25,958 bases of DNA from a virus. Of this stretch, positions 1,225-23,435 are shown in pieces. Numbering within the stretch: the stretch's first letter is position 1; the number at the start of each line of letters is the position of its first letter. The translations under genes and the position numbers were made by a program. Under the pieces are notes generated by a model. That model saw nothing but the letters and a program-made list of their open reading frames with translations. It ran no database searches and was not told where the DNA came from. The DNA lies in the IMG/VR virus record IMGVR_UViG_3300044729_000849, positions 1 to 25,958 of that record, one strand, 5' to 3'.

Positions 1225-1613
1225 TGCCAGGACCCCTCGACTCTCAATATCAGCAAATTGAAGACGTCGTAAATTCGCGCCTATCTCGCCGCGAAACCTA
1301 CGGCAAAATGTATAACGAACAACACGCCCTTCGGTTGGGTGAAGCGTACATGATGTATCCATGGGTCAACCCAGAAATTTTAGTTAGCACGGTGCTTTCC
1401 GATAACGAAGCCGCATTGCCCGCAATCGCCAAATATGCGGCAACCAAAATGATGGAAATGGGGAAAACGCCAGCAGACATTTCAAAAGAGAATGACCAAC
1501 AAGAACAATTAAGTGCTCGCTATATCGAAAAAGCGATAGAGGTTGACCCATCGGGCGACATTCTTTTGCGCGACATGCGTGATGGTTTGCGAATGGGACG
1601 CGCCTATGGCTGA
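1224..1613 (+). CDS. Hypothetical helical protein between portal and giant virion protein
   Basis: A 129-residue, charged, predominantly helical protein beginning at an ATG that overlaps the previous stop by one base (TAATG). The central part (EQHALRLGEAYMMYPWVNPEI and what follows) has the look of a helix, a Pro/Trp turn, and another helix. The C-terminus is rich in Arg, Met and Gly. There are no membrane segments, signal peptide or nuclease motifs. Its stop overlaps the start of the giant downstream gene by eight bases, so the two are very likely translated together; it may be a partner or chaperone of that protein, although this is inference from gene order. I do not recognise the family by name. 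Confidence 0.6.
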   Translation: MPGPLDSQYQQIEDVVNSRLSRRETYGKMYNEQHALRLGEAYMMYPWVNPEILVSTVLSDNEAALPAIAKYAATKMMEMGKTPADISKENDQQEQLSARYIEKAIEVDPSGDILLRDMRDGLRMGRAYG

Positions 1614-4600
1614 AAATAAGGGCTGGTGGGAGGATACAAAAAGTACCGTCGGCGAAAAATACCGCTCAGGCGTTTCATGGGCCGACAGAGCACTGTCCAA
1701 CATCACCCCCGATATCATCGAAAAGCCCCTTGTTAGCGTTATCGACTACGCCATCAAACCCGCAGTTAGGTCATCGCTGGCTGCCGCGCAAGACGCAAAT
1801 ACTTTGCTCACATGGGTGGGCAGCGAACAATGGAAAACGCTCACCAACACCCACAACAAAAACGAAACATTTGGCGAGTTTTGGGATAAGTTCCGTAAAC
1901 AATTTATATACGGTTCGGGAACAGCAGACATGGGTACGGGATTCGTTCCTGGTGGACCCGCGGCACAAAGCGCACAGGCTGGCATTCAGGCCGAACGCGC
2001 ACGGGTTGGCTCACATGCCTTCACTTACGGACGTGCAGCAGCATATCCACTGGTAAAACTCAACGTCATCAGCGAAGACGACTTCACCCATAGAGTAATC
2101 AGTGGAACCATCGACTTGGGCGTGTCACTAAAAAATCCCGTAGACCCATTTAACTGGTTGCCAGGATTCCGCCCAGGAACCACCGCACAAACCTCGCGGG
2201 TTGGTGTTGGCGGAGTCCGCATCTCAAACTACGAAGATTTCACAAAAGCATTCAACGACCTTGAGGACCGTGTAATCGCTGCTCAGCAATCTGGAGCCAA
2301 ACTCAATCCGTCGCAAGCGTCAGACCTCAAGCAATACCGAACTTTCACACAGAATCTTGCGCCAACCGTAGACCGAGAAGTTCTTCTTCTTAGCGGTCAA
2401 CGCCACCAATTCAAAGGGTTCGATACCCAGAAACTTTTCGATGTATGGAAACCACGCGTTGATGAAGCGCTTGGTGACGCATACAACAAAATTGGTTTAG
2501 TCCGCGATGTTTTGCCGACCATCATTCAAGACAACTATTCCAGGTGGAAACAATCTGCCGCAGGCACACAATGGGCAACCGACCTCTTACAATCCGTCCG
2601 CTCTGGGGACCTGGACGCTGGAGAACTATGGCGAACAGTCCTCAAACGCGAAGGCATATTGGCCGCAAAATCCCTTGTCGACAACCTACGAAACCCCGCA
2701 ACTGACGTCACGGATGTTTGGAATGTCCTTGACCAAGCCCGCGCATCATTCAATACTGGCTATAACGTCCGCAACGTTGGCAGAAGCACACTCGACACCC
2801 TTCGCATGGGGCAGGCCAACATCATCAAAATCGTTGCACAAAAACGTGGCAGCCGACTACTTGAAACCTTGCCCGAATCCACCCGAATCGGATTCACCGA
2901 CATCGAACAATCCGCCCGCAACGTCGACGACCTTCTCGGCACATTCGGATTTGAATATACAGAACGAAACATGTGGCTAGACAAATTCGCTGGCGTCATG
3001 GCCAATGGAACCAAAGACGAATTTTTTACTTTTATGCGCGATTTTGAAGCAAACGCCATTGGAAAACGACTTCGCCAACTATCTGGACAAATTACCCAAG
3101 AAGAACAAACACTTGCCCGCGCCCTCGAAGCACAAACACGACAGGCTGCAGGAAAAACATTGAAGCGAGCCGAACAGCGCCTCGTAGCCGACATCCCCAA
3201 CCTGACAGCAAAAGCACAAAAAGCACAACAAGCAGCCAAAACCGCGACAACGATTCTCACCGACGAACAAATCGACGCCCTCACATCCTGGAGCCAAAAA
3301 CTCCGCGATGAAGTTATGGGTTTCAACTACAACGATTTGACAACAAACGTTCCACTTCCATACATGGAACCAGGATTCCAAGGCCCATTACGGACGAGTC
3401 AACTAATGGCTGACGATTACTACATTATTCCACCACAAGTCATCGACGAAGTAAGCAGGCTAAATAGCCGTTTCGGTGCGTTTCTTGGGCGCCAAGCAGC
3501 AGGAGGTGGAGTCAGTAAAGCATCCGCCAAAACATACGAGGCTGCACGTAACGCAACCATCGGCTATATGACAAATTATTGGAAACCAGCAGCCGTCATC
3601 AAACTTGGCCACACCATGCGCGTCGGGGTCGAAGAAGCATTCCGAGTCAATTTAAGCGGAATTCTTGAACACCCGATGGAATGGGTCCTCACTGTTTTTG
3701 GACGAAAACTGGGTGTCGACGCAGCAGGAAACCCCATCCCACGCAAAATTGCCAACCTTCAAAAATTTTGGAATACCCTCGAACAAGCACAAGAACAATA
3801 CAACGAAGCCCTATTTTTCCAAAGTGAACAAACACGCGGAGTCACACTCACCCCAGCCCAACAAAAACTTGTCAACATGGTTGACGAACTAGAAACAAAA
3901 GTCAAAGACCTTGAAGCACGAATCCCCAACGAGGAATTTGAAATTTACAATTCCCTGATTGGGCCGCGAAGCCGTGGCGCATGGATGTCTGCAACTAACG
4001 AATATACGCCGACAATGATAAATATGCGCGAACGGGGAGCAGTCCAATTCCCAGAACGTGTCGATACAGCAGACAACCCCACACCCGCTGCAACTAGAAA
4101 ATCATGGGTTAACGGATTGACACACGAACTTGCGGACATGAACTCCATGCCCGACTACCGCCGCATCGCACAACGAAGCCTTGACCCCACCGATAAAATC
4201 ACCATCAACGGAAAAACTGCCTCTATCACAGACCACGTAACCGCTGGCGAAACCCACCCATACACTGGCGCCCCGCTGTCTAACGATTTCGATGCCGTAA
4301 AACTCTGGCTATACCAAGGCGAAGGACGTCAATTTTTTGAAGGCTACTTTGAAAATATCGCCAACCTAAAAACATCGTACCGTAACGGCGGATATGACAA
4401 CTATGCCATAGCCTCAGAACGCGCAGAACTTATTTACGACGTCGACATCGCCCATCACACTGGGGGCGACCCGCAACTTTTAGAAGTTGTCGCCACTGGA
4501 AATTTCGGTGGACAAAAAGCAATTTTCAAACAATCAAGTGGCAGGGGCGTCGCATCAGCCCCACTCACTGATTACATTTCGGGAACGTTTATTGACGCAC

Positions 4601-6564
4601 CACACGCCCCAATCAGGGTCAGGGTTTTCCCGCGCATGGAAACCGTTGACCCCAACATGGCTTTCAGTGCTAGGGGATTTCGCAACACCCTTGACAAATT
4701 CAACAGCGCACTCAACGTGCTGTACCGCGGGTATTTTGAAGGAATCTACGGACGCACATCTGACTTTTTGTCTCGCGGACCAGCATGGAAAGCGAACTAC
4801 TGGAACCGCATGGAAGAACTCCTACAATTCATGTCCCCAGAAGAAGCGCAAAAGGCATTAGTAAGTGCCAGAAAAGCACGTGTATCGAAACCCCGTTTGG
4901 ACCGCCTCTCCGTTCAGGCAGCGTTAGCCAACGGCGCTGGGACTGTGGAAGATGCCGACAAACTTGCTGGCGCATTTGCAACAAAAACCACCAACGACTT
5001 GCTTTACAAGGGTTCCCGCTCATCACTCGCCCAACAGCACAAAGTCACAATTCCGTTCCTGTCTTCATTTGTAGAAGTGTTTACAACGTGGAGCAAACTC
5101 GCCTCACAATCGCCACGCATCATTCGCAACACTGCCAACTTTTTACAAACCGCCGAAGAAGAAGGCTATATCTACCGCAATGAGTACGGCGAAAAAGTAT
5201 TAGAACTACCGATGACAGGAGCCATGGCTCGCATGTTTATCGGCAAAGACTCCGACCCAATCAACAACTTCACCATAAGCCTCAAAGGTTTAAACCTTGT
5301 CACCCAAATGCGCCCAGGTGTCGGCCCCGTAGTCCAATACCTTTACGACAAAATCTTTCCAGACCCCAACAACTTCGAACAACTACGCGAATTTATTTCG
5401 CCGTTCGGCGCCCCAAATATCGAAGAAGGGGGTTTGTTTTCTCCATTCACCCCAGCATCTCTCAATGACTTCTTGTCAACGTTCGGCACAGATGAGGCCA
5501 GATTTGGGGACGCAATACGCGCCTTTTTTGGTGACCCAACAGAGAAGGATTATTACCGTCGCGGAGTTATCAGAATGCACCAACACCTCACCAATACCCA
5601 AGGCGACAAATATCTTGGACGTGATGGCGTGGAACAATCATGGGAAGATGCGCGAGAAGCCATGAATATTCTTCACCGCTATCGTGCCGCCACCGCAGCA
5701 CTTGGACCAAGCGCACCAATGACCTCATGGATAGCAAAAACAAAATTTGGCAACATCGACCTTGCTGTCTTGCTTAGTGACTTGTCGCTCAAAGAACAAG
5801 AAGCCGTTAAAGGAGGGCAACCTTCGCATGTCGGATTTGGCAAATGGTTGGACCAGTGGGGCGAACTTGTCTGGGTTTACTCAGGTCGAATCACTAGGGG
5901 GACCGTTGGCGGATTGCAAGCCACACGCGAATGGCAAAACTGGGCTAAAGAAAACGGCGAACTTCTCGACAAATACGAATCTGTCGCTGGGTATTTCGGT
6001 CCCCAAACTGGCGAACTCGACATTGAGGTTTGGCGTCAGCAATATGAAACTGACCTACGTGGTGTTCAAGACCTAGAAAAAGCCACGGAACAGTCTCATC
6101 AGCGAATGGGCGATTACGTCTATTACAAATTTATCAACAGTGTCCCCATGGAACTACGCAAAACCCCACAGTTCAGGGCGCAACGCGACAGCATTCTTAA
6201 CGATATTCAAGAAGACCTCCCGCTATGGTTGCGCCCCTCCGAACGAACCGTTGACATCAACAAGCGAACCCGAACCCAAATTGAAGAATTGCGCGGACTG
6301 GCCAAAGACCCCAAGTACCAAGACAACCCATTGGTTAAAGCCGTCGCAGAATATTTCGATATTCGCGACCAAAGCCTCGCAAACTTCCTCGAAGCAAATC
6401 CTAAAGTAACCGTAGAATCATGGGTCAAGGACAACAAATCAAGCCTTGCTTTGCGCCGCCACTTATCGGAAGTTGTTGCCCCAGCCATCGTTGCCAAGTA
6501 CCCCGAGTTCACTTCTCTGTGGGACAGAGTATTATCTAGTGAGTTCGCACCAGTGACAGAGTAA
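1606..6564 (+). CDS. Giant internal virion / DNA-ejection-type protein (1652 residues)
   Basis: This is the largest gene in the window. The frame is open upstream to 1543, but ATG 1606 is preferred because it gives an ATGGCTGA overlap with the preceding stop, as elsewhere in this genome. The protein is mostly helical and Gln/Lys/Asp-rich. Probable coiled coils lie near residues 498-552 (heavily Ala/Gln/Lys) and 754-773. Conserved-looking C-terminal blocks lie near residues 1053-1075 (DFLSRGPAWKANYWNR) and 1133-1166 (a GSRSSLAQQHKVTIPFLSSF segment), a signature I associate with very large virion proteins of actinophage-like genomes. I see no lytic transglycosylase, protease or polymerase motif. 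It lies between the portal and scaffold in a genome with no tape measure gene, so a podoviral ejectosome/core role is the best reading; function is inferred. Confidence 0.66.
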   Translation: MAENKGWWEDTKSTVGEKYRSGVSWADRALSNITPDIIEKPLVSVIDYAIKPAVRSSLAAAQDANTLLTWVGSEQWKTLTNTHNKNETFGEFWDKFRKQFIYGSGTADMGTGFVPGGPAAQSAQAGIQAERARVGSHAFTYGRAAAYPLVKLNVISEDDFTHRVISGTIDLGVSLKNPVDPFNWLPGFRPGTTAQTSRVGVGGVRISNYEDFTKAFNDLEDRVIAAQQSGAKLNPSQASDLKQYRTFTQNLAPTVDREVLLLSGQRHQFKGFDTQKLFDVWKPRVDEALGDAYNKIGLVRDVLPTIIQDNYSRWKQSAAGTQWATDLLQSVRSGDLDAGELWRTVLKREGILAAKSLVDNLRNPATDVTDVWNVLDQARASFNTGYNVRNVGRSTLDTLRMGQANIIKIVAQKRGSRLLETLPESTRIGFTDIEQSARNVDDLLGTFGFEYTERNMWLDKFAGVMANGTKDEFFTFMRDFEANAIGKRLRQLSGQITQEEQTLARALEAQTRQAAGKTLKRAEQRLVADIPNLTAKAQKAQQAAKTATTILTDEQIDALTSWSQKLRDEVMGFNYNDLTTNVPLPYMEPGFQGPLRTSQLMADDYYIIPPQVIDEVSRLNSRFGAFLGRQAAGGGVSKASAKTYEAARNATIGYMTNYWKPAAVIKLGHTMRVGVEEAFRVNLSGILEHPMEWVLTVFGRKLGVDAAGNPIPRKIANLQKFWNTLEQAQEQYNEALFFQSEQTRGVTLTPAQQKLVNMVDELETKVKDLEARIPNEEFEIYNSLIGPRSRGAWMSATNEYTPTMINMRERGAVQFPERVDTADNPTPAATRKSWVNGLTHELADMNSMPDYRRIAQRSLDPTDKITINGKTASITDHVTAGETHPYTGAPLSNDFDAVKLWLYQGEGRQFFEGYFENIANLKTSYRNGGYDNYAIASERAELIYDVDIAHHTGGDPQLLEVVATGNFGGQKAIFKQSSGRGVASAPLTDYISGTFIDAPHAPIRVRVFPRMETVDPNMAFSARGFRNTLDKFNSALNVLYRGYFEGIYGRTSDFLSRGPAWKANYWNRMEELLQFMSPEEAQKALVSARKARVSKPRLDRLSVQAALANGAGTVEDADKLAGAFATKTTNDLLYKGSRSSLAQQHKVTIPFLSSFVEVFTTWSKLASQSPRIIRNTANFLQTAEEEGYIYRNEYGEKVLELPMTGAMARMFIGKDSDPINNFTISLKGLNLVTQMRPGVGPVVQYLYDKIFPDPNNFEQLREFISPFGAPNIEEGGLFSPFTPASLNDFLSTFGTDEARFGDAIRAFFGDPTEKDYYRRGVIRMHQHLTNTQGDKYLGRDGVEQSWEDAREAMNILHRYRAATAALGPSAPMTSWIAKTKFGNIDLAVLLSDLSLKEQEAVKGGQPSHVGFGKWLDQWGELVWVYSGRITRGTVGGLQATREWQNWAKENGELLDKYESVAGYFGPQTGELDIEVWRQQYETDLRGVQDLEKATEQSHQRMGDYVYYKFINSVPMELRKTPQFRAQRDSILNDIQEDLPLWLRPSERTVDINKRTRTQIEELRGLAKDPKYQDNPLVKAVAEYFDIRDQSLANFLEANPKVTVESWVKDNKSSLALRRHLSEVVAPAIVAKYPEFTSLWDRVLSSEFAPVTE

Positions 6565-10121: not shown

Positions 10122-11084
10122 ATGTCCAAGACACAACAGAGCAGCCTGCTCACAGACCAGGTTGCATTTGACAGGATTGCGTACTTCGCACTCCGCTCCG
10201 AACTTCTGTTCGACGCGGTTGCAGACGTGATGCCAGTCGCACAAGCAATGCCAGGTTCAAGCGTGAAGTTCACCATCTTCAACGACTTGAGCGAAAAGAC
10301 CAGCACCCTCACCGAGGACACCGACGTCACCCCAGTGGTGATGGGCGACAGCCAAGTTGAAGTGACGCTGGATGAGTACGGCAACGCCGTCAACACCACC
10401 GCCAAGTTGCGTGGCACCTCGTTCCTTGACGTGGATGCAGCAGCCGCGAACCTCGTTGGTTACAACGCTGGTATCAGCATCGACGGAGTTATCCGTGACG
10501 TGCTTGCCGCTGGCACCAACGTCGTGTACGGCGGTGGCGGAACCACCACCCCAACGGCTCGCAACAACATTGCGGCAGCAGACATCATTGAGGCGAACGA
10601 CGTTCGCCGCATTGTTGCTGCTCTTCGCAAGGCCAACGCCGTTTCGTTCAACGGCATGTACATGGGTTACATCCACCCCGATGTAAGTTACGACCTCCGT
10701 CGCGAGACGGGTGTTGCGTCGTGGCGTGACCCGCACGTGTACAGCGACCCAGCAGGTATCTACAACGGCGAAATCGGAGCCTTCGAAGGTGTGCGTTTCA
10801 TTGAGACGCCACGTGCGAAGATTTTCGAGAACGCCTCGAACGGCTCAGGCTCGACGGGCACCGTGGATGCGTACTGCACCCACATCTGTGGACGTCAGGC
10901 ACTCGCCAAGGCTCACTCGATTGTGGATGGCAATGGCGCGTTCCCACGCGTTGTGCGCGGTCCAGTGGTCGACGTGCTCCAGCGCTTCCAGCCTGTCGGC
11001 TGGTACTGGCTTGGTGGCTACGCACGATTCCGCGAGGCTTCGCTGCGTCGCATTGAGTCGTCGTCGTCGCTCGGCGCGAACTAA
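10122..11084 (+). CDS. Major capsid protein, N4-gp56-like (HK97-fold)
   Basis: A 320-residue protein forming the icosahedral shell. It matches the N4-gp56-type major capsid layout: helical N-terminus with a FDRIAYFALRSELLFDAVAD segment, a VKFTIFNDLSEKTSTLTED strand-and-loop region (residues 48-66), VEVTLDEYGNAVNTTAKLRG near residues 79-98, SFNGMYMGYIHPDVSYDLRR near 176-195, and the late block IYNGEIGAFEGVRFIETPRA near 213-232, where the glycine-rich turn before the ET residues is the clearest family mark. Length fits the family. Codon choice is strongly biased toward C-ending codons relative to neighbouring fibre genes, in keeping with very high expression. It follows the scaffold gene and is followed by a strong terminator. 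Confidence 0.88.
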   Translation: MSKTQQSSLLTDQVAFDRIAYFALRSELLFDAVADVMPVAQAMPGSSVKFTIFNDLSEKTSTLTEDTDVTPVVMGDSQVEVTLDEYGNAVNTTAKLRGTSFLDVDAAAANLVGYNAGISIDGVIRDVLAAGTNVVYGGGGTTTPTARNNIAAADIIEANDVRRIVAALRKANAVSFNGMYMGYIHPDVSYDLRRETGVASWRDPHVYSDPAGIYNGEIGAFEGVRFIETPRAKIFENASNGSGSTGTVDAYCTHICGRQALAKAHSIVDGNGAFPRVVRGPVVDVLQRFQPVGWYWLGGYARFREASLRRIESSSSLGAN

Positions 11085-11184: not shown

Positions 11185-11553
11185 ATGTCGATTTCTAACT
11201 ACGCCGAATTGAAGATTCTTGACCACCTGACTGGTCGCGCCGCTTGGACTGCACCATCCACGGTGTACATCAAGTTGCACACGGGCGACCCTGGCGAAGA
11301 AGGCACGAGCAATGCGGCAACGAATACTGACCGCAAATCGGCTTCGTGGTCGGCTGCCTCATCTGGTTCTATTGCGACCTCTGCAACCTTGGAGTGGACA
11401 AACGTTTCCACGACCGAAACGTACAGCCATTGGTCAGCCTGGGATAACTCAACTGCTGGCAACTGTTTGTGGACTGGTGCCCTCTCTGCTTCTGCTGCGG
11501 TTACCGCTGGTGACACTTTCCAAATCACTTCGTTGACGCTTTCGTTGGACTAA
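11185..11553 (+). CDS. Small virion protein, probable head decoration or fibre-base protein
   Basis: A 122-residue beta-rich protein with a GAGGTAA ribosome-binding site. Near residues 26-40 is the motif VYIKLHTGDPGEEGT, followed by alternating Ser/Thr/Ala strands, a YSHWSAWDNSTAGNCLWTG segment and a C-terminal FQITSLTLSLD strand. The sequence 'LHTGDPGEEG ... Trp-rich middle ... gain of function strand' is a recurring signature of small phage structural proteins encoded next to capsid or tail-fibre genes. No enzyme motif, signal peptide or membrane segment is present. Directly downstream of the capsid terminator and upstream of fibre genes, it could coat the head or form a fibre attachment; the family is recognised, the exact role is not. 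Confidence 0.6.
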   Translation: MSISNYAELKILDHLTGRAAWTAPSTVYIKLHTGDPGEEGTSNAATNTDRKSASWSAASSGSIATSATLEWTNVSTTETYSHWSAWDNSTAGNCLWTGALSASAAVTAGDTFQITSLTLSLD

Positions 11554-11566
11554 GGGGTAGCCCGTA

Positions 11567-12796
11567 GTGGCGACCAATTTTCCTACATCTTTGGATTCTT
11601 TGACGAATCCTACGTCTACGGATTCGCTGACGTCTCCTTCTCATGCTGGTCAGCATGCTGATGCGAATGATGCGATTGAGGCTTTGCAGGCGAAGGTTGG
11701 TGTCAATTCGTCTGCGGTGACGTCATCGTTGGATTATAAGGTTGAGGGGTTGTTGGCTGTTTCGCAATCAAATCGGAATGTTGTTGTCAATGGTGCGATG
11801 CAGGTTGCGCAACGTGCCACTTCGGTGACTAGTAATACTGCTGGTGGTTATTTGACGGCGGATAGGTTCAACTTTCTTGTTTCTAGTTTTGGGACGTGGA
11901 CTCAGGATATCCAGAATGATGCACCTACAGGTTCTGGGTTTCGTAAGTCGTTGAGGATGCTTTGCACTACTGCTGATGCGTCTCCTGCTGCTGGCGATAA
12001 TGGTGCTATTCAGCAGAGGTTTGAGGGCCAGAACTTGCAACAGTTTGCAAAAGGCACTTCTTCAGCCAAGCAGTTCACGTTGTCGTTTTGGGTGAAGTCG
12101 AATGTGACTGGCACCTATATTGCTGAACTTGATGACCAGGATAATAGTCGTTCTGTGTCGGCTTCATATAGTATTTCGGCTTCTGCTACTTGGGAGAAGA
12201 AGACGATTACTTTTCCTGCGGATACGACTGGCGCGTTTGACAACGATAGCGCTCATAGTTTGTCGGCTAATTTTTGGCTTGGTGCTGGTACGACGTTCAC
12301 GAGTGGGACTTTGGCAACGAGTTGGGCGTCTCGCACCAATGCGAATCGTGCTGTCGGTCAGGTGAATGTTGCTGCTGCTACGAACAACTATTGGCAAATT
12401 ACGGGTGTGCAGTTGGAAGTTGGTGCGGTTGCGACACCGTTCGAGTTTGAGGACTATGGCACGACGCTGGCAAAGTGTCAGCGATATTATTGGCGAGGCG
12501 GCAACGGCTCACCAGGCATATTCAACGGTTCAAACACCGCGAGGTATAGCGTCACGTTTCCAACCTCAATGCGTGCAGCCCCAACCGCAACAGCAATTGC
12601 GGCCCCCATTGTCATAAATCCGACCATTGCAGAACAACAAACAGGTTCCCAAACGACCAATTTTTCTGTTACGGGTTTTGGCGCAAGCGTTGATTACTCT
12701 GTTGCACAAATACAGTTCGGCGGATTTTCAAGCGGAGCAGACGGCAGACCGACCACATTGCTGAATACCGCCCTTGAGTTTAGTATCGAGTTGTGA
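11567..12796 (+). CDS. Tail fibre / receptor-binding protein with carbohydrate-binding-like domain
   Basis: A 409-residue fibre protein starting at GTG with GGGGTAG upstream. Residues 1-60 are a Thr/Ser/Leu-rich adaptor ending in SHAGQHADANDAIEALQAKV, a short helix typical of fibre trimerisation or virion attachment. Residues 68-290 form a jelly-roll-like domain opened by NRNVVVNGAMQVAQRAT and TADRFNF and closed by VQLEVGAVATPFEFEDYG then LAKCQRYYWR, a common phage sugar-binding fibre domain. The last 110 residues are a separate beta-rich C-terminal domain likely exposed at the tip. Codon style changes near 12470, just at this domain boundary: T-rich before, A/C-rich after. This suggests exchange of the tip domain. 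Confidence 0.8.
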   Translation: MATNFPTSLDSLTNPTSTDSLTSPSHAGQHADANDAIEALQAKVGVNSSAVTSSLDYKVEGLLAVSQSNRNVVVNGAMQVAQRATSVTSNTAGGYLTADRFNFLVSSFGTWTQDIQNDAPTGSGFRKSLRMLCTTADASPAAGDNGAIQQRFEGQNLQQFAKGTSSAKQFTLSFWVKSNVTGTYIAELDDQDNSRSVSASYSISASATWEKKTITFPADTTGAFDNDSAHSLSANFWLGAGTTFTSGTLATSWASRTNANRAVGQVNVAAATNNYWQITGVQLEVGAVATPFEFEDYGTTLAKCQRYYWRGGNGSPGIFNGSNTARYSVTFPTSMRAAPTATAIAAPIVINPTIAEQQTGSQTTNFSVTGFGASVDYSVAQIQFGGFSSGADGRPTTLLNTALEFSIEL

Positions 12797-12990: not shown

Positions 12991-14121
12991 ATGACTACCT
13001 ACAACAATTCCGCTTACACCTATAACCAAGCAGGCGTCACCTACAACCAGGTTGTCGTCGCACGCACCGCGACAGGCACAGGCACAGGCAGCGAATACGC
13101 AGTCATCCCAGCCAACCCCAGCCCCAACGGGCTAACCGACTTCCAATTCGCATACCGCAACACCCCCGCCTTCTACACAGGCGTAACAACCATCACCCGC
13201 ACCGCCACAGGTTCGGGCAGTGGAACCGCATCCGCAACAGGTGTGCGTGTGGTCTTGCGTACTGCTACTGGTTCAGGCACAGGCACCGAAACTGCCGCAG
13301 GGCTACGTATCGTCCCACGAGAAGCCACAGGCTCAGGCGCAGGCACCCAAACTGCGGAAGGTTCACGAGTCCTGCAACGCACAGCGACAGGCTCAGCGAC
13401 AGGCACCCAAACCGCTGACAGTCTCACCATCCGTATTGCCACAGCCACGGGTTCTGGGGTGGGCACGCAGACAGCCACAGGTGTTACTACTTTCATCCGT
13501 ACGGCAACGGGTTCGGGTGCTGGCACAGAATCAACATCGGTTGTCTATGTGCGTGTCCGTACCGCTACGGGTTCGGGGACGTCATCAGAGTCTGCCCAAG
13601 CCCTCGAAATCCTTCCACGCACCGCCACGGGGAGTGGTCAAGCAACCACAGACAGTGTTGCAATCGGGCTGCTTATCATTCTTAGGGCTGCGACTGGTTC
13701 TGGGGCGGGCACCCAAACTGCATCATTCATCCGCGGCTTGCTTCGTACTGCCACAGGTTCAGGCACGGGCACTCAAGAGTGCATCGGTGCGCGTCTGGCT
13801 ACCGCTACTGGCACTGGCTCTGGTATCGGAACCAGCACAACAACCACATTCAAGAACCTCGTGTTCCGCACCCCATCAACCACGGAGATTGCCCCCGCTG
13901 ACCGTAACGACATGACTGTTTCGGGTCGCCTGTTCCGTTACGCCGAACCCACCTACGCTGGCATCAACATCTACAAACTCACTGACGGCTCCTATACGTC
14001 AGTTGAGCAACGGGACTATGACTTGATTTCAAGGGTCTATTGGGGCGGCACATTGAACGTCGTGACCGCCGAAGAGAAGGCTGACCTGGTTGCAGCAGGC
14101 TATGGTGATTACGTCTCATGA
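12991..14121 (+). CDS. Repeat fibre protein, eleven Thr/Gly/Ser-rich repeats of about 20 residues
   Basis: A 376-residue protein. The N-terminus (1-70) is Tyr/Asn/Thr-rich with a first degenerate repeat at residues 25-34. From residue 71, a repeat beginning TATGSGxGT recurs at 71, 91, 111, 131, 151, 171, 191, 211, 233, 253 and 271. Each unit is a Gly/Ser/Thr turn followed by a short hydrophobic strand often ending in Arg, so a beta-helix or beta-roll rod is likely. The last 55 residues form a globular domain with KLTDGSYTSVE, RVYWGG and AAGYGDYVS, which recurs in the next gene. No signal peptide is present. It is probably a virion fibre; the high Thr/Ser content and the glycosyltransferase genes downstream make it a plausible glycosylation substrate, which is inference. 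Confidence 0.7.
   Translation: MTTYNNSAYTYNQAGVTYNQVVVARTATGTGTGSEYAVIPANPSPNGLTDFQFAYRNTPAFYTGVTTITRTATGSGSGTASATGVRVVLRTATGSGTGTETAAGLRIVPREATGSGAGTQTAEGSRVLQRTATGSATGTQTADSLTIRIATATGSGVGTQTATGVTTFIRTATGSGAGTESTSVVYVRVRTATGSGTSSESAQALEILPRTATGSGQATTDSVAIGLLIILRAATGSGAGTQTASFIRGLLRTATGSGTGTQECIGARLATATGTGSGIGTSTTTTFKNLVFRTPSTTEIAPADRNDMTVSGRLFRYAEPTYAGINIYKLTDGSYTSVEQRDYDLISRVYWGGTLNVVTAEEKADLVAAGYGDYVS
13201..13860 (+). repeat. Eleven in-frame coding repeats, mostly exactly 60 bases
   Basis: Units begin at 13201, 13261, 13321, 13381, 13441, 13501, 13561 and 13621 (exact 60-base spacing), then 13687, 13747 and 13801. Each starts with codons for (T/E/A)ATGSG or a close variant. Wobble positions differ between units while the amino acids stay, so selection appears to act on the protein and the array is not a recent DNA expansion. 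Confidence 0.85.
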
Positions 14122-14402
14122 GCATCTTCAGACCACCAACCGACGACTTCATGGTGTTGGGTATTCCACCCAAGGAGTTTGATTCTCAAGAGGCGCGGAT
14201 GGCATATTCGCTGTTCAAACATTTCGATGCCGAACCTCGCGGTAGGAACGTGTTCCTACTCACCAACGGCACCTACACGGAGAACGAACCGAACGACATC
14301 ACCACCATCTCCAAGGTGTATTGGGGTGGGACGGATAACCAAGTGTCGGCTGATGAAGTTGCTAGTCTTACTGCGGCAGGTTACGGCGCATACATTTCGT
14401 AG
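14118..14402 (+). CDS. Small virion protein, duplicate of the preceding fibre's C-terminal domain
   Basis: A 94-residue protein whose ATG overlaps the previous stop by four bases (ATGA). The N-terminus FRPPTDDFMVLGIPP is a typical opening of this small phage family. The rest aligns by eye with the last 55 residues of the repeat fibre: LLTNGTYTENE against KLTDGSYTSVE, SKVYWGGTDNQVSADE against SRVYWGGTLNVVTAEE, and AAGYGAYIS against AAGYGDYVS. The two therefore share a domain, probably used for attachment to or assembly on the virion, and arose by duplication or share a common building block. It is soluble, with no membrane segment and no enzyme motif. Confidence 0.65.
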   Translation: MSIFRPPTDDFMVLGIPPKEFDSQEARMAYSLFKHFDAEPRGRNVFLLTNGTYTENEPNDITTISKVYWGGTDNQVSADEVASLTAAGYGAYIS

Positions 14403-14408
14403 GGGAAA

Positions 14409-14642
14409 ATGAAACACGCAGAAACACACCCGACACTCGACGTTGAAGGCTGTTTCGCTTGCCGTATTTCGCATGTGCGCATGTCTGGGTCTGCGATGCC
14501 AACACGCCACAACGTCCAACACTTGAACGCGAAAGAGAAACAGTTAGACAAAGACCTGGATGCCTACAAGCGCATCCGTCGCACTGGCGGGCAGCCAACG
14601 AAGATTGACGGGTCAGCCAAACTAGAAAAAATAGCCGACTGA
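14409..14642 (+). CDS. Small CxxC protein (possible zinc knuckle)
   Basis: A 77-residue protein with a GGGGAAA ribosome-binding site. The N-terminus has HPTLDVEGCFACRISHVRMS: a Cys-x-x-Cys pair with nearby His residues (5 to 8 and 17) that could bind metal. The C-terminal half is a charged helix (LNAKEKQLDKDLDAYKRIRR) ending in GGQPTKIDGSAKLEKIAD. The same small protein, with the DVEGCF(A/G)C opening and the 'AYKRIRRTGxQP' ending, looks familiar from many actinophage genomes, where its function is unknown. It overlaps the next start by one base (TGATG) and lies between the fibre and glycosyltransferase genes. DNA or protein binding are both open. Confidence 0.6.
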   Translation: MKHAETHPTLDVEGCFACRISHVRMSGSAMPTRHNVQHLNAKEKQLDKDLDAYKRIRRTGGQPTKIDGSAKLEKIAD

Positions 14643-15346
14643 TGCGGCTCACCATCTACATCCCGACATACAAGCGACCAGACATTGACGCATGTTTGGC
14701 GAGCATCATGCCCCAGATTGTTGAAGGCGTAGAAGTAATCGTAAGCGACAACGACGGGTACGCAGAACAGTTCGTAGCCAAATACAGCGGTGTCCAATAC
14801 TCCAAGCGCAAACATAACATTGACGGCGACCCAAATGTTTTCAGGGGGCTGTCTATCGGGTCTGGGGACTACGTGTGGATTATCGGGGATGACGACACGC
14901 TGTTGCCTGGGACCATCAAGAACTTGTTGCCGATGCTTGATGGAACTGACCGCATCCTGCATTATTCGGCTAATGCGGGAGAAACACTGCCAGGGTTCAA
15001 AGGGACTACACGCCAATACATTCAGACGCTAAAAGATAAATCGGTGTTGGTTGCGTCGACGTTGATTACTTCGTCGGTGTGGCGTCGTGACGCGATGAAT
15101 CTGCGGTTGGGGTTGGACAAGATTGACACTAGATACCCGTTGGCGTGGGCGGCATTGGCGATGCAAACCATCGCGGTCATGCCGATGCCAACAATCACCG
15201 TCGGGCATATTTACCGCGACAACGCGTTTTCGTTCTTTGGCGAAGTAATTGACGAATATCTCGCCGCCTTGTCTGCGCAACACGATTTGCCCCGTATCCC
15301 CTTTGGGGATGCGTGCCGCTGGAACTTTGTCAGCGTATCGGAATGA
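14642..15346 (+). CDS. Glycosyltransferase, GT-A fold (family 2-like)
   Basis: A 234-residue enzyme expected to transfer a sugar from a nucleotide-sugar donor to an acceptor. The N-terminal half carries the GT-A signatures in order: IPTYKRP at 7-13 (opening of the nucleotide-binding strand), VIVSDNDG at 32-39 (nucleotide contact), and WIIGDDDTLLPG at 79-90, where the DDD is the metal-binding DxD motif. Length is short for the family, and no membrane segments are visible. The start is set by the TGATG overlap with the preceding gene, and the stop overlaps the next glycosyltransferase start by four bases, so the two are very likely made together. Substrate unknown; virion proteins or host glycans are both possible. 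Confidence 0.85.
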   Translation: MRLTIYIPTYKRPDIDACLASIMPQIVEGVEVIVSDNDGYAEQFVAKYSGVQYSKRKHNIDGDPNVFRGLSIGSGDYVWIIGDDDTLLPGTIKNLLPMLDGTDRILHYSANAGETLPGFKGTTRQYIQTLKDKSVLVASTLITSSVWRRDAMNLRLGLDKIDTRYPLAWAALAMQTIAVMPMPTITVGHIYRDNAFSFFGEVIDEYLAALSAQHDLPRIPFGDACRWNFVSVSE

Positions 15347-16446
15347 ACTACCAATCTTGGTTGGGGTATCCACACCCGCGTTACGGGTACGGTGCAATGT
15401 TCAAAGGGTTCATGGACCACGTGCCCAAGGATGTGACGTTGCACGAACATGCGAGCGTCATGGTCAACATGATGCAGCCATACCAAATCAAAACGTTCTA
15501 CAAGAATCAGTGGCGAGCCTGTTTCACGATGTGGGAATCCACCCAACTCAACCAACGATTCATTGACTGGATGAACGTCTACGACCAAATCATCGTCCCT
15601 TGCGACCATAACGTTGAGTTGTTTTCTCGGCATCACAAGAATGTGCATAAGGTTCCGTTGGGGGTGGACACAAAGATTTGGAAACCCAAACAGCGACCAG
15701 CCAACCCCAGGTTCAGGTTTCATGCTGGCGGGTCACAGTGGTTGCGTAAAGGGTTGGACATCGTGTTGGAGGCGTTCAAACTTGCTGACCTTGACGCCGA
15801 ACTCCACCTCAAACCAAACCCTGAAGCACACGGCGTACCTGACCTCAAGTTGCCTGACAACGTGTTTATGCACCGAGCCTGGTTCACCGACCAAGAAACC
15901 ATCGACTACTTTCATCAAGCCGACTGCTACATCGCCGTCACGAGAGGTGAAGGTTTCGGGTTGATGCCGTTGCAGGCAATGGCGTGCGGTATCCCAACGA
16001 TTCTCAATGACTCCTCGGGACAGAAAGGTTTCGCTTATCTCGCCCCGTTCGTTCTGGGCCACAAGCCGTCACCGTCAATCTATGGTGGCGACTGGGACGA
16101 AACCGACCCACGGGAGTTGGCGGAGGCAATGCGTGAAATGTACGCCAACCACAACACCTATCTGGCGTGGGCTAAAGCCAAACTGCCCGAGGTTCGCAAA
16201 TGGTCCTGGACATCGGCTGCCCGCCAACTCGCAGACACTTTGCCCGCAGGAACCCTGCTCACCGACCTTGCAACCGAGACGGCTACCCTCTGGCATCACG
16301 TCACCTTGAAACGCAGCCTCCAATGCGACATCGCAGGCAAGACGTACAAGTTCATCAAAGGGGAGCCGTTGCGGGTACCTGAAGGGGTGCTTGACGTTGT
16401 GCTTGCTGCTGGCTATGTTGATACGTATACAGTGGAGGCACGATGA
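15343..16446 (+). CDS. Glycosyltransferase, GT-B fold (GT4-like), with extra C-terminal domain
   Basis: A 367-residue enzyme. ATG 15343 is chosen over GTG 15313 because of its ATGA overlap with the preceding gene. Family features: HKVPLGVDTKIWKP near 102-115, SQWLRKGLDIVLEAF at 131-145 (first strand-loop of the donor domain), and TRGEGFGLMPLQAMACGIPT at 200-219. In the last block the usual second Glu of the E-x7-E motif is Gln (residue 211), which could alter but need not abolish activity. The N-terminal acceptor domain is shortened, lacking the usual GG loop. From about residue 325 there is a tail (KTYKFIKGEPLRVPEGVLDV, then LAAGY) not expected in GT4 enzymes; it may anchor the enzyme or bind a virion partner. 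Confidence 0.83.
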   Translation: MNYQSWLGYPHPRYGYGAMFKGFMDHVPKDVTLHEHASVMVNMMQPYQIKTFYKNQWRACFTMWESTQLNQRFIDWMNVYDQIIVPCDHNVELFSRHHKNVHKVPLGVDTKIWKPKQRPANPRFRFHAGGSQWLRKGLDIVLEAFKLADLDAELHLKPNPEAHGVPDLKLPDNVFMHRAWFTDQETIDYFHQADCYIAVTRGEGFGLMPLQAMACGIPTILNDSSGQKGFAYLAPFVLGHKPSPSIYGGDWDETDPRELAEAMREMYANHNTYLAWAKAKLPEVRKWSWTSAARQLADTLPAGTLLTDLATETATLWHHVTLKRSLQCDIAGKTYKFIKGEPLRVPEGVLDVVLAAGYVDTYTVEAR

Positions 16447-17118: not shown

Positions 17119-17276
17119 TGCCTCTCCCAAAGAACAAGAAGTCTTCCGTGAAGGGCGCTCCTGCGAAGGAGTATCGTCCTGCACCGAAAGCGAAGAAGGG
17201 CAAGCGTACTCGTAAGTCGTCTGCCAAAGCACAAGCAGGTTCGTTCCCAGGGTACGGTACCTACGGAGTAAGATGA
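17118..17276 (+). CDS. Lysine-rich microprotein, 52 residues
   Basis: A 52-residue, Lys/Arg/Ser/Ala-rich protein whose ATG overlaps the preceding stop by one base and whose stop overlaps the connector-like gene by four bases (ATGA). Residues 1-36 (for example APAKEYRPAPKAKKGKRTRK) are basic and probably disordered. The C-terminus switches to GSFPGYGTYGVR, a short aromatic/glycine peptide that could be a docking tail. The mixed tail differs from the fully basic ends of its neighbours. I do not recognise the family. Tight coupling to the connector-like gene downstream points to a late, structural or assembly-related role, by context only. Confidence 0.66.
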   Translation: MPLPKNKKSSVKGAPAKEYRPAPKAKKGKRTRKSSAKAQAGSFPGYGTYGVR

Positions 17277-18157
17277 CGACAGTTGCGACGGTCCTGAACA
17301 GGGCTTCGCGTCAGATGTTGGCAGGGGTCGTTGAAGAACGCAACAAGTTGGCGACAAGCCTCGATAGCAGCACGACAAGTGTTGTTCTGTCTTATGACCT
17401 TGGCGGCTTTCGTGCTGGTTCTGTATTCGAAATTGAATCAGAACTCTTTTACGTTTGGGAAGCGAACACGGCAACCAAAACGCTCACAGTGGAACGAGGA
17501 TTCAGCGGCACGACCGCTGCGGCTCACTCAGCCAACGTACTTGCTACGGTCAATCCGCGCTTCCCGCGAGCGCAAATGCTCGATGCAGTAAACGCTGAAC
17601 TGGACGACTTGTCGTCAACGATGAACGGACTGTTCCGTGTCGTCACTACCGACCTCACCTATAACGGTTCGGACCGTCAAATCAACATTACGAACTCTGG
17701 AACAATTATCGAACTGTTGGATGCACGTCTCCGCTATCTTGCCGACGACCATCCTGTGTTGAGTTACGTGCGTCTACAAACAGGTTTGCCAACAACCGAT
17801 TTCGCGTCAGGGAACACGCTCGTGTTTGATGAGCCTGTGATGGCAGGTTCGGTACGTGTGCGTTATAAGGCCCCGTTTGTGCGTGCCACCGCAGAGTCAT
17901 CCGACTTGACCACCAACTGCTTCCTGCCTGCTACGTGTGATGACATTGTGGAAACTGGTGTCATTTTGCGGATGATGAACGGACGTGAAATCAAACGAAA
18001 CTTCATTGAGGCTCAGGGGGATACGCGTCGACCTGATGAGGTTCCTCCTGGTGCTGTTCGTGATTCGGTTACAAGTCTTGCCCGTTTGCGTCGTGAGCGT
18101 ATTATTGCGGAGGCGGCACGTTTGAAGGCGCAGTACCCAATCAAGTTTAGGAAGTAG
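17273..18157 (+). CDS. Putative head-tail connector / adaptor protein
   Basis: A 294-residue protein. The N-terminal 95 residues are beta-rich (DSSTTSVVLSYDLGGFRAGS, a FEIESELFYVWE strand) and end in VERGFSGTTAAAHSANV followed by VNPRFPRAQMLDAVNAELDD. The 'ERGxxGTTAxxH' loop leading into an NPRFP helix is a signature I associate with podoviral-type adaptor or tail-completion proteins and also with fibre adaptor domains. Residues 130-210 are a second beta domain; the C-terminus is a basic helical tail (SLARLRRERIIAEAARLKAQ). It immediately precedes the large nozzle-like gene, which fits an adaptor joining portal to tail. Assignment rests on context plus motif resemblance. Confidence 0.6.
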   Translation: MTTVATVLNRASRQMLAGVVEERNKLATSLDSSTTSVVLSYDLGGFRAGSVFEIESELFYVWEANTATKTLTVERGFSGTTAAAHSANVLATVNPRFPRAQMLDAVNAELDDLSSTMNGLFRVVTTDLTYNGSDRQINITNSGTIIELLDARLRYLADDHPVLSYVRLQTGLPTTDFASGNTLVFDEPVMAGSVRVRYKAPFVRATAESSDLTTNCFLPATCDDIVETGVILRMMNGREIKRNFIEAQGDTRRPDEVPPGAVRDSVTSLARLRRERIIAEAARLKAQYPIKFRK

Positions 18158-18160
18158 CCG

Positions 18161-20014
18161 ATGGCTACGCTGACGCGTTTCAAAGACGCTTTCCGTCCAG
18201 CAACATCGTTCTATACAGGGACGGGTGCAACCCAGTTAGTTCCCGACGTTTTCCCTGTCGCTATCAACGGTCGCCCGTACATGGTGGACATGAAGGCGAA
18301 CGCGTTCAACCGCCAGTTCGATGCCCGTGTTCGTGACTCGGTTGACCAGTCAACGGAACCTGGCGAAGGTGCGTTGAACCCGCAGGGTTTGTGGCGTCGT
18401 TCGCAGTCATCGTGGCACTACGGGGCAGGGCAACAGTATTCGGATACGGCTGACGCTGAGGCGTACAGGTTCTATACAAGCAAGGGTGTGGACCCGTGGA
18501 CGAAAGGTCGGCTTAGCCTGTTGAAGGATACGACGAACGTGTACCCAACTTCGGGTACGAACTTGTATGCGGTGACTGCTGATGGTCGCCTCTATGGAAC
18601 TGACGGACAGACCGTTAGATACACCAGCGATTTCGTGACGGTCACAACGGTGACAGGTACCAAAACATCAAACTTGTATTCGATTACGTCTGACGGCTAC
18701 AACGTGTTCTACTCGTACGCCAACGGCGACATCGACCAAACAAAAGCAGACATCTCCACTTCGTCGGCGTACATCACGGGCATTGAGGCTGGCATCCTGG
18801 CTTACGTCAGGGGGCGTCTGATGGTCGCAGGTCAGGGTACCGATAAACGCAAGATTTGGAACATCACCACCCCAGCACAGTCGTCAGCGAATAACCCGTC
18901 TCCGCTCTACACGCATCCGAACACCAACTGGAACTGGGTCGGTTTCGCTGCTGGACAAACCCACATCTATGCCGCAGGCTACGCAGGCAATACGAGCATC
19001 ATCTACAAGACGCAAATCCAAGCCGATGGCACAGCACTTGCCATCCCAACCGCAGCCGCCGAACTACCCCTCGGAGAAATTGTCCAATCCATCTACGGCT
19101 ACCTCGGCTACATCATCCTGGGTACGACCACAGGATTCCGTTTCTGCTCGGCAGACACCGACGGCAACCTCACCGTCGGACCACTCGTACAAACAGGTGC
19201 AGCAGTCGGAGCGATGGCAGGCATCGGTCAATACGTCTACTTCTCATGGTCCAACTTTGACTCCACCTCAACAGGCATCGGACGCATGGACATCTCCGTG
19301 TTCATCTCCCCTAACCAGCCCGCGTACGCAACCGATTTGATGGCTACGGCACAAGGTACGGTGCAGTCAATCCACGAGTTCCAAAACAAGCCACTCTTCA
19401 CCGTCTCAGGTGTCGGCGTGTTCACACCCCACGCCACCAACCTCGTCTCCTCTGGCTACCTACGTTCAGGCATCTACCGTTGGGGTGTCCCAGATGCCAA
19501 GTTCATCCCCAAACTTGACTTGCGCTGCCTGCCGTTGAAAGGTTCAGTCACGATGGCGGTGGCATCAGACGGCGGAGACTTCTTCGACTTTGCCACCCTG
19601 TCCACCCCGAACGTCAAAGAAAAAACGTTCGACGGGCTAGAAGACAAAGTGTTCGAAGCCGAAATCAAAGTCACCCTCGCCCGTGATGCCGTAACCAGCA
19701 CAGGACCCACCCTCACCCGTTGGATGGCACGCGCCTACGCCGCCCCGCTACGCTCCCAAATCTTCTCCGTCCCCCTCATCATGCACCACAAACTGTCTAT
19801 CAACGGACGCGAATACTGGCAGGACGTCGACCGCGAACTTGCCTACCTGCGCGACCTTGTGGAAACCCCCCGAGTGGTCACCTACCAGGAGAACGAAGAA
19901 ACGTTCGCGGTGGTAGTGGAGAACGTGCAGATGCAGATAGCCCAGTTGGTGAACGCCCATCGGACGAACGACTTTGAAGGTACTGCTATAGTCGTCATGC
20001 GTAGTGTAAGATAG
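18161..20014 (+). CDS. Large tail nozzle / tail-tip-like protein, probable beta-propeller
   Basis: A 617-residue protein. The first 120 residues are a conserved-looking cap: VFPVAINGRPYMVDMKANAF, then RVRDSVDQSTEPGE, then GLWRRSQSSWHYGAGQQYSD. The middle (about 125-430) is made of repeated four-strand blades rich in Gly, Thr and Asp, for example LYAVTADGRLYGTDG and LYSITSDGYNVFYSYANGD, as in beta-propellers. The C-terminal 170 residues add further beta domains, ending with a Val-rich segment. In short-tailed phages the tail tube ends in a propeller-containing nozzle ring, directly after the adaptor gene, as here. Assignment is by architecture and context. Codon style is T-rich up to about 18600 and C/A-rich from about 18960, so the gene may be mosaic. 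Confidence 0.62.
   Translation: MATLTRFKDAFRPATSFYTGTGATQLVPDVFPVAINGRPYMVDMKANAFNRQFDARVRDSVDQSTEPGEGALNPQGLWRRSQSSWHYGAGQQYSDTADAEAYRFYTSKGVDPWTKGRLSLLKDTTNVYPTSGTNLYAVTADGRLYGTDGQTVRYTSDFVTVTTVTGTKTSNLYSITSDGYNVFYSYANGDIDQTKADISTSSAYITGIEAGILAYVRGRLMVAGQGTDKRKIWNITTPAQSSANNPSPLYTHPNTNWNWVGFAAGQTHIYAAGYAGNTSIIYKTQIQADGTALAIPTAAAELPLGEIVQSIYGYLGYIILGTTTGFRFCSADTDGNLTVGPLVQTGAAVGAMAGIGQYVYFSWSNFDSTSTGIGRMDISVFISPNQPAYATDLMATAQGTVQSIHEFQNKPLFTVSGVGVFTPHATNLVSSGYLRSGIYRWGVPDAKFIPKLDLRCLPLKGSVTMAVASDGGDFFDFATLSTPNVKEKTFDGLEDKVFEAEIKVTLARDAVTSTGPTLTRWMARAYAAPLRSQIFSVPLIMHHKLSINGREYWQDVDRELAYLRDLVETPRVVTYQENEETFAVVVENVQMQIAQLVNAHRTNDFEGTAIVVMRSVR
19984..19992 (+). promoter_or_regulatory. Possible extended -10 promoter element (TGCTATAGT)
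   Basis: TGC-TATAGT lies within the last codons of the nozzle-like gene, 28 bases before the ATG at 20021. The -10 hexamer differs from TATAAT at two positions and carries the TGn extension. No TTGACA-like -35 is seen at the right distance. It would drive the second fibre module and matches the form found at 9551. Confidence 0.42.
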
Positions 20015-21851: not shown

Positions 21852-22141
21852 TGGCTCACTACGCATTTATTACCGCAGGTGTTGTCACCGAAGTAATCGT
21901 TGGGCGTGATGAGGATGACCTAGCAGAAGGCGTCTCGTCGTGGGAAAATTATTATGCGACGAAGCGAACGGGTCAGGTCTGCAAACGAACTTCATACAAC
22001 ACTTACCGCGACGAGAATGGGGTTTCACATCACCTATTGGGTGGCACTCCATTCAGGGGTCAATACGCAGGCATTGGCGATATCTACGACGCTGAACTTG
22101 ACGAGTTCGTGACACCACCTGTTGAGGATGCGCCCGAATAA
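21851..22141 (+). CDS. Small fibre-module protein with KRTSYNTYRDENG motif
   Basis: A 96-residue protein beginning MAHYAFITAGVVTEVIVGRD, followed by SSWENYYATKRTGQVCKRTS, YNTYRDENGVSHHLLGGTPF and RGQYAGIGDIYDAELDEFVT. This 'HYAFIxxGVVxxVIvG... WE.yY... KRTSYNT..G.H..GG.PFRG.yAgIGd.YD' order is a very common small phage protein found next to fibre genes in myoviruses, podoviruses and siphoviruses alike. Its function is unknown; it may form a compact fibre-end or baseplate-type module. It overlaps the exported-protein gene downstream by 14 bases. Confidence 0.75.
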   Translation: MAHYAFITAGVVTEVIVGRDEDDLAEGVSSWENYYATKRTGQVCKRTSYNTYRDENGVSHHLLGGTPFRGQYAGIGDIYDAELDEFVTPPVEDAPE

Positions 22142-23435
22142 CAGCCTTCGATGGCTGATATTTCTCCCAGCAGCAATCCTCGCGCTCGCTGCCCCAGCCA
22201 AAGCCGACGCACAACCAGGACTCAACGCCGTTGGTTACACCTATGAGCCGACAGGCATCCCCCTCCGCGTAGACGACCTCTACCCAACCTGCGGGTCAGA
22301 GACAGAAAACAACATCAACCGCAACTTCAACGGCGAACCATTCCAAAACTGCGGATACGACCTCTTCATGGTTCACTACACAGGATTCATCACCCTCCCC
22401 GAACATGAGACGATTCAGTTCATGGTCGCAGCCGACGACGGCGGCACCATCCAAATCGCAGACACCGAGTTCGGCACATGGAACATCAAAGGCTGCTCAT
22501 GGAGCCAGCAAGTCAGCCTTGATGTTGGGGCTGGCACGTATCCGTTAGACGGCTGGTTCTTTGAATGGGGTGGCGGAACCTGCTACATGCTCGCCTGGAA
22601 CATTGACAACGAAGGCTGGGCCATCGTCCCTGATGAGGCGTTCACTCAAACCTCCACCCCACCAACCACCACGACCACGGTGCCTGAAACAACCGTACCT
22701 GAGACGACTGTTCCTGAGACGACGTTGCCAGAGACAACTACGACTGAGCCTGTTACCACGACTACAGAGTTGGTTACGACAACTACTGAACAAACCACGA
22801 CCACAACTACGACAACAACTACGACGACGACTGTTTATGTGCCGCCAGCAACCACCACCACAGAACCCGAGCCAGAACCCGAGCCAGAAACTACAACGAC
22901 TACGGAACCTGTCGAGGAGGAAGAGCCTCCCCTTGACAGCACGCCTCCTCAGCCAGAAGACGACGAGCCACAGGACTCAACTCCTGAGACTCCTCCGACA
23001 ACCGAGCCTGAAATGCCTCAACCCGAAACAACGCTAGAAACAGAAACGACACCAGAAGAAACATTCCCAGAACAGGAAACAGAAGAAGAATCATCAGAGT
23101 CAACCATACCCGAGGAGCCGACATCGGAGCAAGCATTGGTGTTCGCCACCAACCCAGAGGTACTCGCGACCATCAGCAACGAGGAAGCCGAAGCAATCTT
23201 TGAAGCCCTCGACCTGTCCACCCTTGATGAGAGTCAGGTGGCTGAACTGGTCGCCGCAGTCCAAGACGCCCCCACCGAAGTCAGGGAAGCGTTCGAAGAG
23301 AAAGTGGACATCTTCAAAGAAGGGCTGGATGATTATATTCCTACGGGTTCCAACATCCCTGTCGGGGAACGTCGCGCCCTTATTGCCATTGGTGCGGCTA
23401 TCACGGCTGCGGGTGCGACTAGGATACGCCGATAA
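22128..23435 (+). CDS. Exported PA14-like surface protein with Thr-rich linker and C-terminal anchor
   Basis: A 435-residue protein. ATG 22128 gives a clean signal peptide (basic start, hydrophobic LIFLPAAILALAAPAKADA, predicted cut after ADA at residue 28). Residues 30-172 are a lectin-like, PA14-type domain: NNINRNFNGEPFQNCGYDLF, a MVHYTGFITLP strand, an AADDGG turn at 101-106 (acidic pair that commonly holds calcium for sugar binding), KGCSW, and GGGTCYMLAW. Four Cys (55, 75, 123, 152) could form two disulfides. Residues 174 to about 335 are Thr/Pro/Glu low complexity. The end is helical, with SNIPVGERRALIAIGAAITA then AGATRIRR, a short hydrophobic segment flanked by Arg. Probably displayed on the host envelope during infection; its role in lysis or exclusion is unknown. 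Confidence 0.76.
   Translation: MRPNNSLRWLIFLPAAILALAAPAKADAQPGLNAVGYTYEPTGIPLRVDDLYPTCGSETENNINRNFNGEPFQNCGYDLFMVHYTGFITLPEHETIQFMVAADDGGTIQIADTEFGTWNIKGCSWSQQVSLDVGAGTYPLDGWFFEWGGGTCYMLAWNIDNEGWAIVPDEAFTQTSTPPTTTTTVPETTVPETTVPETTLPETTTTEPVTTTTELVTTTTEQTTTTTTTTTTTTTVYVPPATTTTEPEPEPEPETTTTTEPVEEEEPPLDSTPPQPEDDEPQDSTPETPPTTEPEMPQPETTLETETTPEETFPEQETEEESSESTIPEEPTSEQALVFATNPEVLATISNEEAEAIFEALDLSTLDESQVAELVAAVQDAPTEVREAFEEKVDIFKEGLDDYIPTGSNIPVGERRALIAIGAAITAAGATRIRR
22647..23130 (+). repeat. Thr/Pro/Glu low-complexity linker coding region
   Basis: The linker of the exported protein consists of ACN and GAN codon runs: repeated ACTGTTCCTGAGACG-like units (V/L-PETT), then poly-threonine, then PEPEPEPE and acidic stretches. 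Synonymous codons vary between units, so it is not a simple microsatellite, although length variation is likely. Confidence 0.7.

Follow-up and report, generated by a model that had tools for sequence, protein, structure and literature searches.

A nearly fixed 20-residue repeat in a probable virion fibre protein of a putative podovirus

The stretch of viral DNA analysed in this study (the window, 25,958 nucleotides of IMG/VR record IMGVR_UViG_3300044729_000849) encodes a 376-residue repeat protein, P0001 (12991..14121, +), composed of an N-terminal segment, a repeat shaft and a C-terminal domain. Upstream of it lie the gene for the major capsid protein (10122..11084, +), a gene for a 122-residue protein (11185..11553, +) that matches PF23140 (podophage GP4 fiber I gp80, E 1.1e-30) and PDB entry 8jou (E 7e-10), and a second fibre gene (11567..12796, +) that falls in PHROG 4492, tail fiber. 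Labels of the 122-residue neighbour conflict, being GP4 fibre in Pfam and head protein in PHROG 240 and RefSeq. Directly downstream, with a 4-base overlap, is the gene for P0002 (94 residues, 14118..14402, +), followed by two overlapping glycosyltransferase genes (14642..16446, +), one GT2-type (14642-15346) and one GT4-type (15313-16446), and by two structural-type genes (17273..20014, +) in PHROG 7578 and 11667, both of unknown function, which from their position and size may encode a tail adaptor and a nozzle. Two further open reading frames of the window deserve mention. A 1673-residue frame at 1543-6564 gave only sub-threshold Pfam hits and no PHROG or NCBIfam match, and the Streptomyces phage FlowerPower has an uncharacterised gene of 4.9 kb at a similar location. 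A 437-residue frame at 22122-23435 had no Pfam or PHROG match; read by eye, its start resembles a secretion signal, a long segment is rich in Thr, Pro and Glu, and the C-terminus is hydrophobic.

The N-terminal segment of P0001 (residues 1-69; 12991..13197, +) holds a YN-rich start, an isolated unit at R25 (base 13063) that had been overlooked in the earlier note, and a TDFQFAYRNTPAFYTG module, which is found in relatives too, either at the start or internally. Eleven tandem units with the motif R-T-A-T-G-S-G-x-G-T... follow (13198..13866, +), the array beginning at base 13198. Counted from the Arg before TATG, the units start at residues 70, 90, 110, 130, 150, 170, 190, 210, 232, 252 and 272 (bases 13198 to 13804); seven are 20 residues long and the remaining four measure 22, 20, 20 and about 21, the last one merging into the C-terminal domain with its register set by alignment. 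The TATG motifs start at 13201, 13261, 13321 (here EATG), 13381, 13441, 13501, 13561 and 13621, which bears out the earlier claim that eight units lie exactly 60 bases apart, that is, in seven steps of 20 residues, and the next two steps of 66 and 60 bases were also read correctly. The final step of 54 bases, however, is a register slip inside ATATGTGSGIGT; in the last unit ATATGTGSGIGTS repeats its own dipeptides, and TATG, TGTG and GSG overlap. The idea that steps of 22 and 18 residues cancel and restore the total length was rejected, because the SGxGT register and the ungapped alignment to two relatives, L001 and L002, give a last step of 20, and the array is a pure multiple of 20 plus two residues. 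With this 20-residue register, 105 residues run from the last unit to the end of the protein, the same number as in L001, L002, L003 and L008. Our automatic scanner had placed the last window anchor four residues early (a step of 16), and the alignment led us to correct this step manually to 20. The sole 22-residue unit, RTATGSGQATTDSVAIGLLIIL (13618..13683, +), has a counterpart in that a +2 unit is present in most relatives as well. The 20-residue period is far above chance: residue identity at lag 20 is 0.457, and the best value over lags 5-60 in shuffled controls reached at most 0.234 with single residues and 0.307 with two-residue blocks (2000 shuffles each). Even lags outscore odd lags throughout, a sign of residues that alternate. 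An antisense open frame of 117 residues (13173-13526, -) overlaps the repeats and is likely a by-product of the repeated codons.

The DNA of the units has diverged much further than the motif. Pairwise identity between window units is 0.37-0.68, and across 45 unit pairs codons agree at 32% of third positions and 67% of second positions. The silent variation described in the earlier note is confirmed, since the same codon was used in only 155 of 451 same-residue comparisons (34%). When synonymous codons were permuted, 29.7% (sd 2.1) were expected to be the same, so silent sites are nearly but not wholly randomised, with a small residual excess of shared codons (p 0.0185). The blank result of Tandem Repeats Finder, which reported no array at the P0001 repeats, fits with this silent variation. 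Replacement change between units is restricted: mean pS is 0.69, with pN of 0.125 in eight core positions and 0.548 elsewhere. Compared with L001, L002 and L008, dN/dS over the repeat region is 0.15, 0.09 and 0.19, respectively, values that are approximate with dS above 1. Window units are 0.69-0.77 identical to their positional orthologues and 0.46-0.50 to other units, and of the 11 units, 10, 8 and 8 have their positional counterpart as the closest unit in the same three relatives, respectively. From the near-random silent sites, the dN/dS of 0.09-0.19 and the closeness of units to their positional orthologues, it follows that the repetition in P0001 is old, position-fixed and selected, in agreement with the earlier proposal of long-term selection on a 20-residue structural period. 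Recent slippage or duplication of DNA without structural meaning could draw on the slight excess of shared codons and on a unit pair in L043 that is 83% identical in DNA, the most alike in any of 30 proteins. We consider it highly improbable and reject it, since the window units are merely 37-68% alike with silent sites near random, orthologous units are the most alike, and dN/dS is well below 1.

Relatives were collected in two scans of viral contigs, the first of which gave L001-L003 and the second the best 80 of 146 relatives. Step lengths were counted after merging identical proteins into 66 distinct ones and by a scan without penalty on step length, leaving aside L004-L007 (window pieces or repeats of L001 and L002), L064 (broken frame) and L086-L117, which served in the comparison of gene order only; the scanning anchor alternates residues and by itself favours even step lengths. 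These 66 proteins, drawn from the best 80 of 146 relatives, have 680 steps, of which 589 span exactly 20 residues and 59 span 22; a length of 21 occurs four times, 24 once, 16 three times and 40-48 in 24 cases, and none is 17, 18, 19 or 23. Unit length is thus conserved among relatives, a point on which the earlier note had let its proposal stand or fall. The same picture holds in a set of 30 proteins below 88% identity, freed of four truncated proteins and close copies, where 268 of 317 steps are 20 and 25 are 22 (again from the best 80 of 146 relatives). The period does admit exceptions, as the steps of 22 and of 40-48 demonstrate; the long steps, by reading, mostly hold an inserted TDFxFxY...FYxG-like module or a skipped degenerate unit. 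The number of units per protein varies from 8 to 15 among the matches listed. Indels between close relatives are often whole units, with one gap of 40 between L065 and L069 (90% identical), two of 40 between L022 and L035 and one of 20 between L041 and L063; more distant pairs show mixed gap lengths. In L064 (about 3983-4955) the repeat gene is split over two reading frames, by a frameshift or an assembly error. Over 268 units, positions 1-10 are conserved as Arg (83%), Thr (83%), Ala (94%), Thr (80%), Gly (75%), Ser (75%), Gly (99%), any residue, Gly (97%) and Thr (65%), and positions 11-20 read Q/S/E, T/S, A, T, G, L/V, R/V/H, I/V, A/R/V and P/L. Ala or Gly alternates with Thr or Ser through positions 2-13, and position 1 is Arg or Lys in most units of each of the 30 proteins.

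The C-terminal domain of P0001 (13867..14118, +) is shared by the relatives, and their C-termini are more alike (mean identity 0.49) than their N-termini (0.40), which suggests that it may be the constant end of the protein. P0002 is a stand-alone paralogue of this domain, 45% identical to P0001 residues 304-376. In most relatives its gene adjoins the repeat gene, and in 50 of 59 records among the matches listed it is found in the interval from the repeat gene to the next tail gene. Both the domain (1.4e-4) and P0002 (7.7e-7) match the PHROG 8987 profile, as does FlowerPower gp38 (9.4e-35); a direct profile comparison with FlowerPower gp38 is weak (probability 19 over 29 columns). A sequence-profile search of solved structures gave no match for the C-terminal domain.

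The gene order around P0001 recurs in the relatives. Upstream of the repeat gene, among the matches listed and in counts that include near-identical records, a GP4-fiber-I-like gene is present in 78 of the 79 records that reach far enough, a capsid gene in 65 of 66 and a second fibre gene in 11 of 81. Phage records with a homologue of the 122-residue protein number 669, and 650 of these are from Mycobacterium phages; in mycobacteriophage Phlyer the homologue comes after minor tail genes. The capsid protein is about 45% identical to capsids of the Streptomyces Beephvirinae and the gene order is similar, so that on sequence grounds the source virus appears to be a podovirus related to that group; PMC9753666 presents FlowerPower, a member of the group, as a podovirus by electron microscopy.

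Among the matches listed, 44 of 59 records carry glycosyltransferase genes in the interval that separates the repeat gene from the next tail gene, and about a third of the repeat residues are Thr or Ser. Both observations would suit a disordered, mucin-like Thr/Ser-rich linker glycosylated by the adjoining phage enzymes. We regard such a linker as unlikely, because our queries found no glycosyltransferase in the other 15 of the 59 records listed, L065 has only short unrelated open reading frames in that slot, and the Thr/Ser fraction is hardly different with and without these genes (0.338 versus 0.321 in 18 and 6 non-redundant proteins). An exact unit length and position-specific Gly and Ala are also unexpected for disorder. 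The cassette itself (14642-16446 in the window) varies in type between relatives and is absent from some, and L001, L003 and L056 have a methyltransferase gene upstream too.

Sequence searches gave P0001 no function. No match was found in Pfam or NCBIfam, all PHROG matches are of unknown function, and none of these three collections placed it in a family named tail fibre. By tblastn with the whole of P0001, a consensus-like repeat, the C-terminal 90 residues and L063, no match appeared among named phage isolates, in a search that had the low-complexity filter on and possibly left out near records. A pattern search of bacterial genomes returned 58 matches and no confirmed relative. Against solved structures, sequence profiles returned only three designed helical proteins (E 0.0053 or worse), which were judged compositional and rejected. 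Our literature search found no description of a TATGSG 20-residue repeat.

Single-chain prediction, which the earlier note had proposed as a check on a beta-roll or solenoid rod, gave a regular two-strand pattern in both AF2 models, at a pLDDT of only about 30-50 in the repeats. The full-length model, built from 28 sequences (the set of 30 without L046 and L062), has a pLDDT of 29-39 up to residue 280; from residue 291 onward, the C-terminal domain included, values lie mostly at 63-91. The six-unit fragment, built from 44 six-unit windows, many of which MAFFT slid by whole units with thinned ends, has a mean pLDDT of 47.7 and pTM of 0.33, and two strands in almost every unit. Over all 122 residues this low-confidence fragment aligns to SufD (Z 12.0, rmsd 1.9) and SufB (Z 10.7, rmsd 1.7) as well as to many other right-handed beta-helices; beta-helix enzymes also head the list for the full model (Z 8.8 and 8.6). 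In BFVD only two rows fell below E 0.001, an unnamed 400-residue protein and an 85-residue uncultured phage protein. Such VIA-align and Foldseek rows, drawn from low-confidence repeat regions, do not count as proof of a fold. PMC11795689 reports that AF2 is biased to unrealistic beta-solenoids for perfect repeats and names stacked charges as a warning sign, and with the low model confidence this is why we do not take the SufD and other beta-helix alignments as proof.

Two folds for the shaft appear about equally likely, each falling somewhat short of an even chance. The first is a parallel beta-solenoid formed by a single chain with one 20-residue coil per unit, to which the beta-helix alignments of both models point. 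Against it stand the low confidence of both models in the repeats, the AF2 bias for perfect repeats and the Arg of position 1, which is present in 83% of units and would stack as an unpaired stripe of charge in a tightly packed solenoid.

The second fold is an obligate trimer of interweaving chains, like a triple beta-spiral or otherwise interwoven, in which a unit would be common to three chains. Units shared by three chains are found in many viral fibre shafts. Monomer confidence that is low despite a clean period, units of two strands whose turns are rich in Gly, and a neighbourhood of fibre genes are consistent with a trimer, whereas the nearly fixed length of 20 residues is stricter than in adenovirus-type fibre shafts, where loops vary.

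With either fold, we think it probable that P0001 forms a fibre on the virion of a short-tailed phage, most plausibly a tail fibre or appendage, with a shaft made of a strict 20-residue beta repeat. Its gene is flanked by the capsid and GP4-fiber-I-like pair and by putative tail genes, and the fiber-I relative upstream places it in a likely fibre module. The tail assignment comes wholly from gene order and neighbours, and a head fibre is possible because the neighbour upstream bears the name of a head protein in PHROG 240. In the preferred reading of a virion fibre, the middle of P0001 would be a rod of stacked 20-residue units with two short beta strands each, one around positions 17-4 (hydrophobic L16 and I18, then R-T-A-T) and the other around positions 8-14 (x-G-T-Q-T-A-T). 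The number of units, 8-15 in relatives, would fix the rod length, and the conserved C-terminal domain would anchor or cap the rod. The data directly show the period with its conservation and the selection that maintains it, as well as the gene order and the common C-terminal domain; we infer the location in the virion, the rod shape and the end that attaches. More speculatively, and with the balance clearly against it at present, the TATGSGxGT array could be an undescribed fibre fold, a beta rod packed by Gly and Ala, faced by Thr and Ser and marked by a stripe of Arg, with 20 (or 22) residues per step. A group of uncultured podoviruses would use it as a ruler of adjustable length, with the conserved C-terminal domain on one side and N-terminal modules that can be swapped on the other. 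As it stands, the finding is an ordinary one for a phage fibre. Should the rod prove real, the relatives would offer a natural series of shafts of 8 to 15 units, allowing structure and adsorption to be studied as a function of fibre length. They would also provide a clean test of whether predictors that work on one chain take interwoven viral fibres for beta-solenoids.

P0001 can be compared with four known systems. The low-confidence model resembles right-handed beta-helix proteins such as SufB and SufD, pectate lyases and phage tailspikes; unlike in these, the units of P0001 are Thr/Gly/Ala-rich and of nearly fixed length, and our searches found no sequence relation. GP4 fiber I gp80 (PF23140, 8jou) has a relative encoded just upstream, whereas P0001 itself showed no relation to it in any search made. 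FlowerPower and the other Beephvirinae are like the window in capsid, in comparable gene order and in gp38, which shares PHROG 8987 with P0002 and the P0001 C-terminus, but differ in that tblastn, within the limits of filter and record coverage given above, did not find the TATGSG repeat protein in them. The fourth is PHROG 23524, whose profile P0001 matches over the repeats and C-terminus (E 5e-74, best stretch residues 115-375). This family, together with the 146 related IMG/VR places of which the best 80 were fetched, shares both the repeat and the C-terminal domain with P0001, and differs from the present work in being catalogued only, with function unknown and no assigned structure. The sequence family is therefore not new, and the interest of P0001 lies in its unusually exact period and in the fold.
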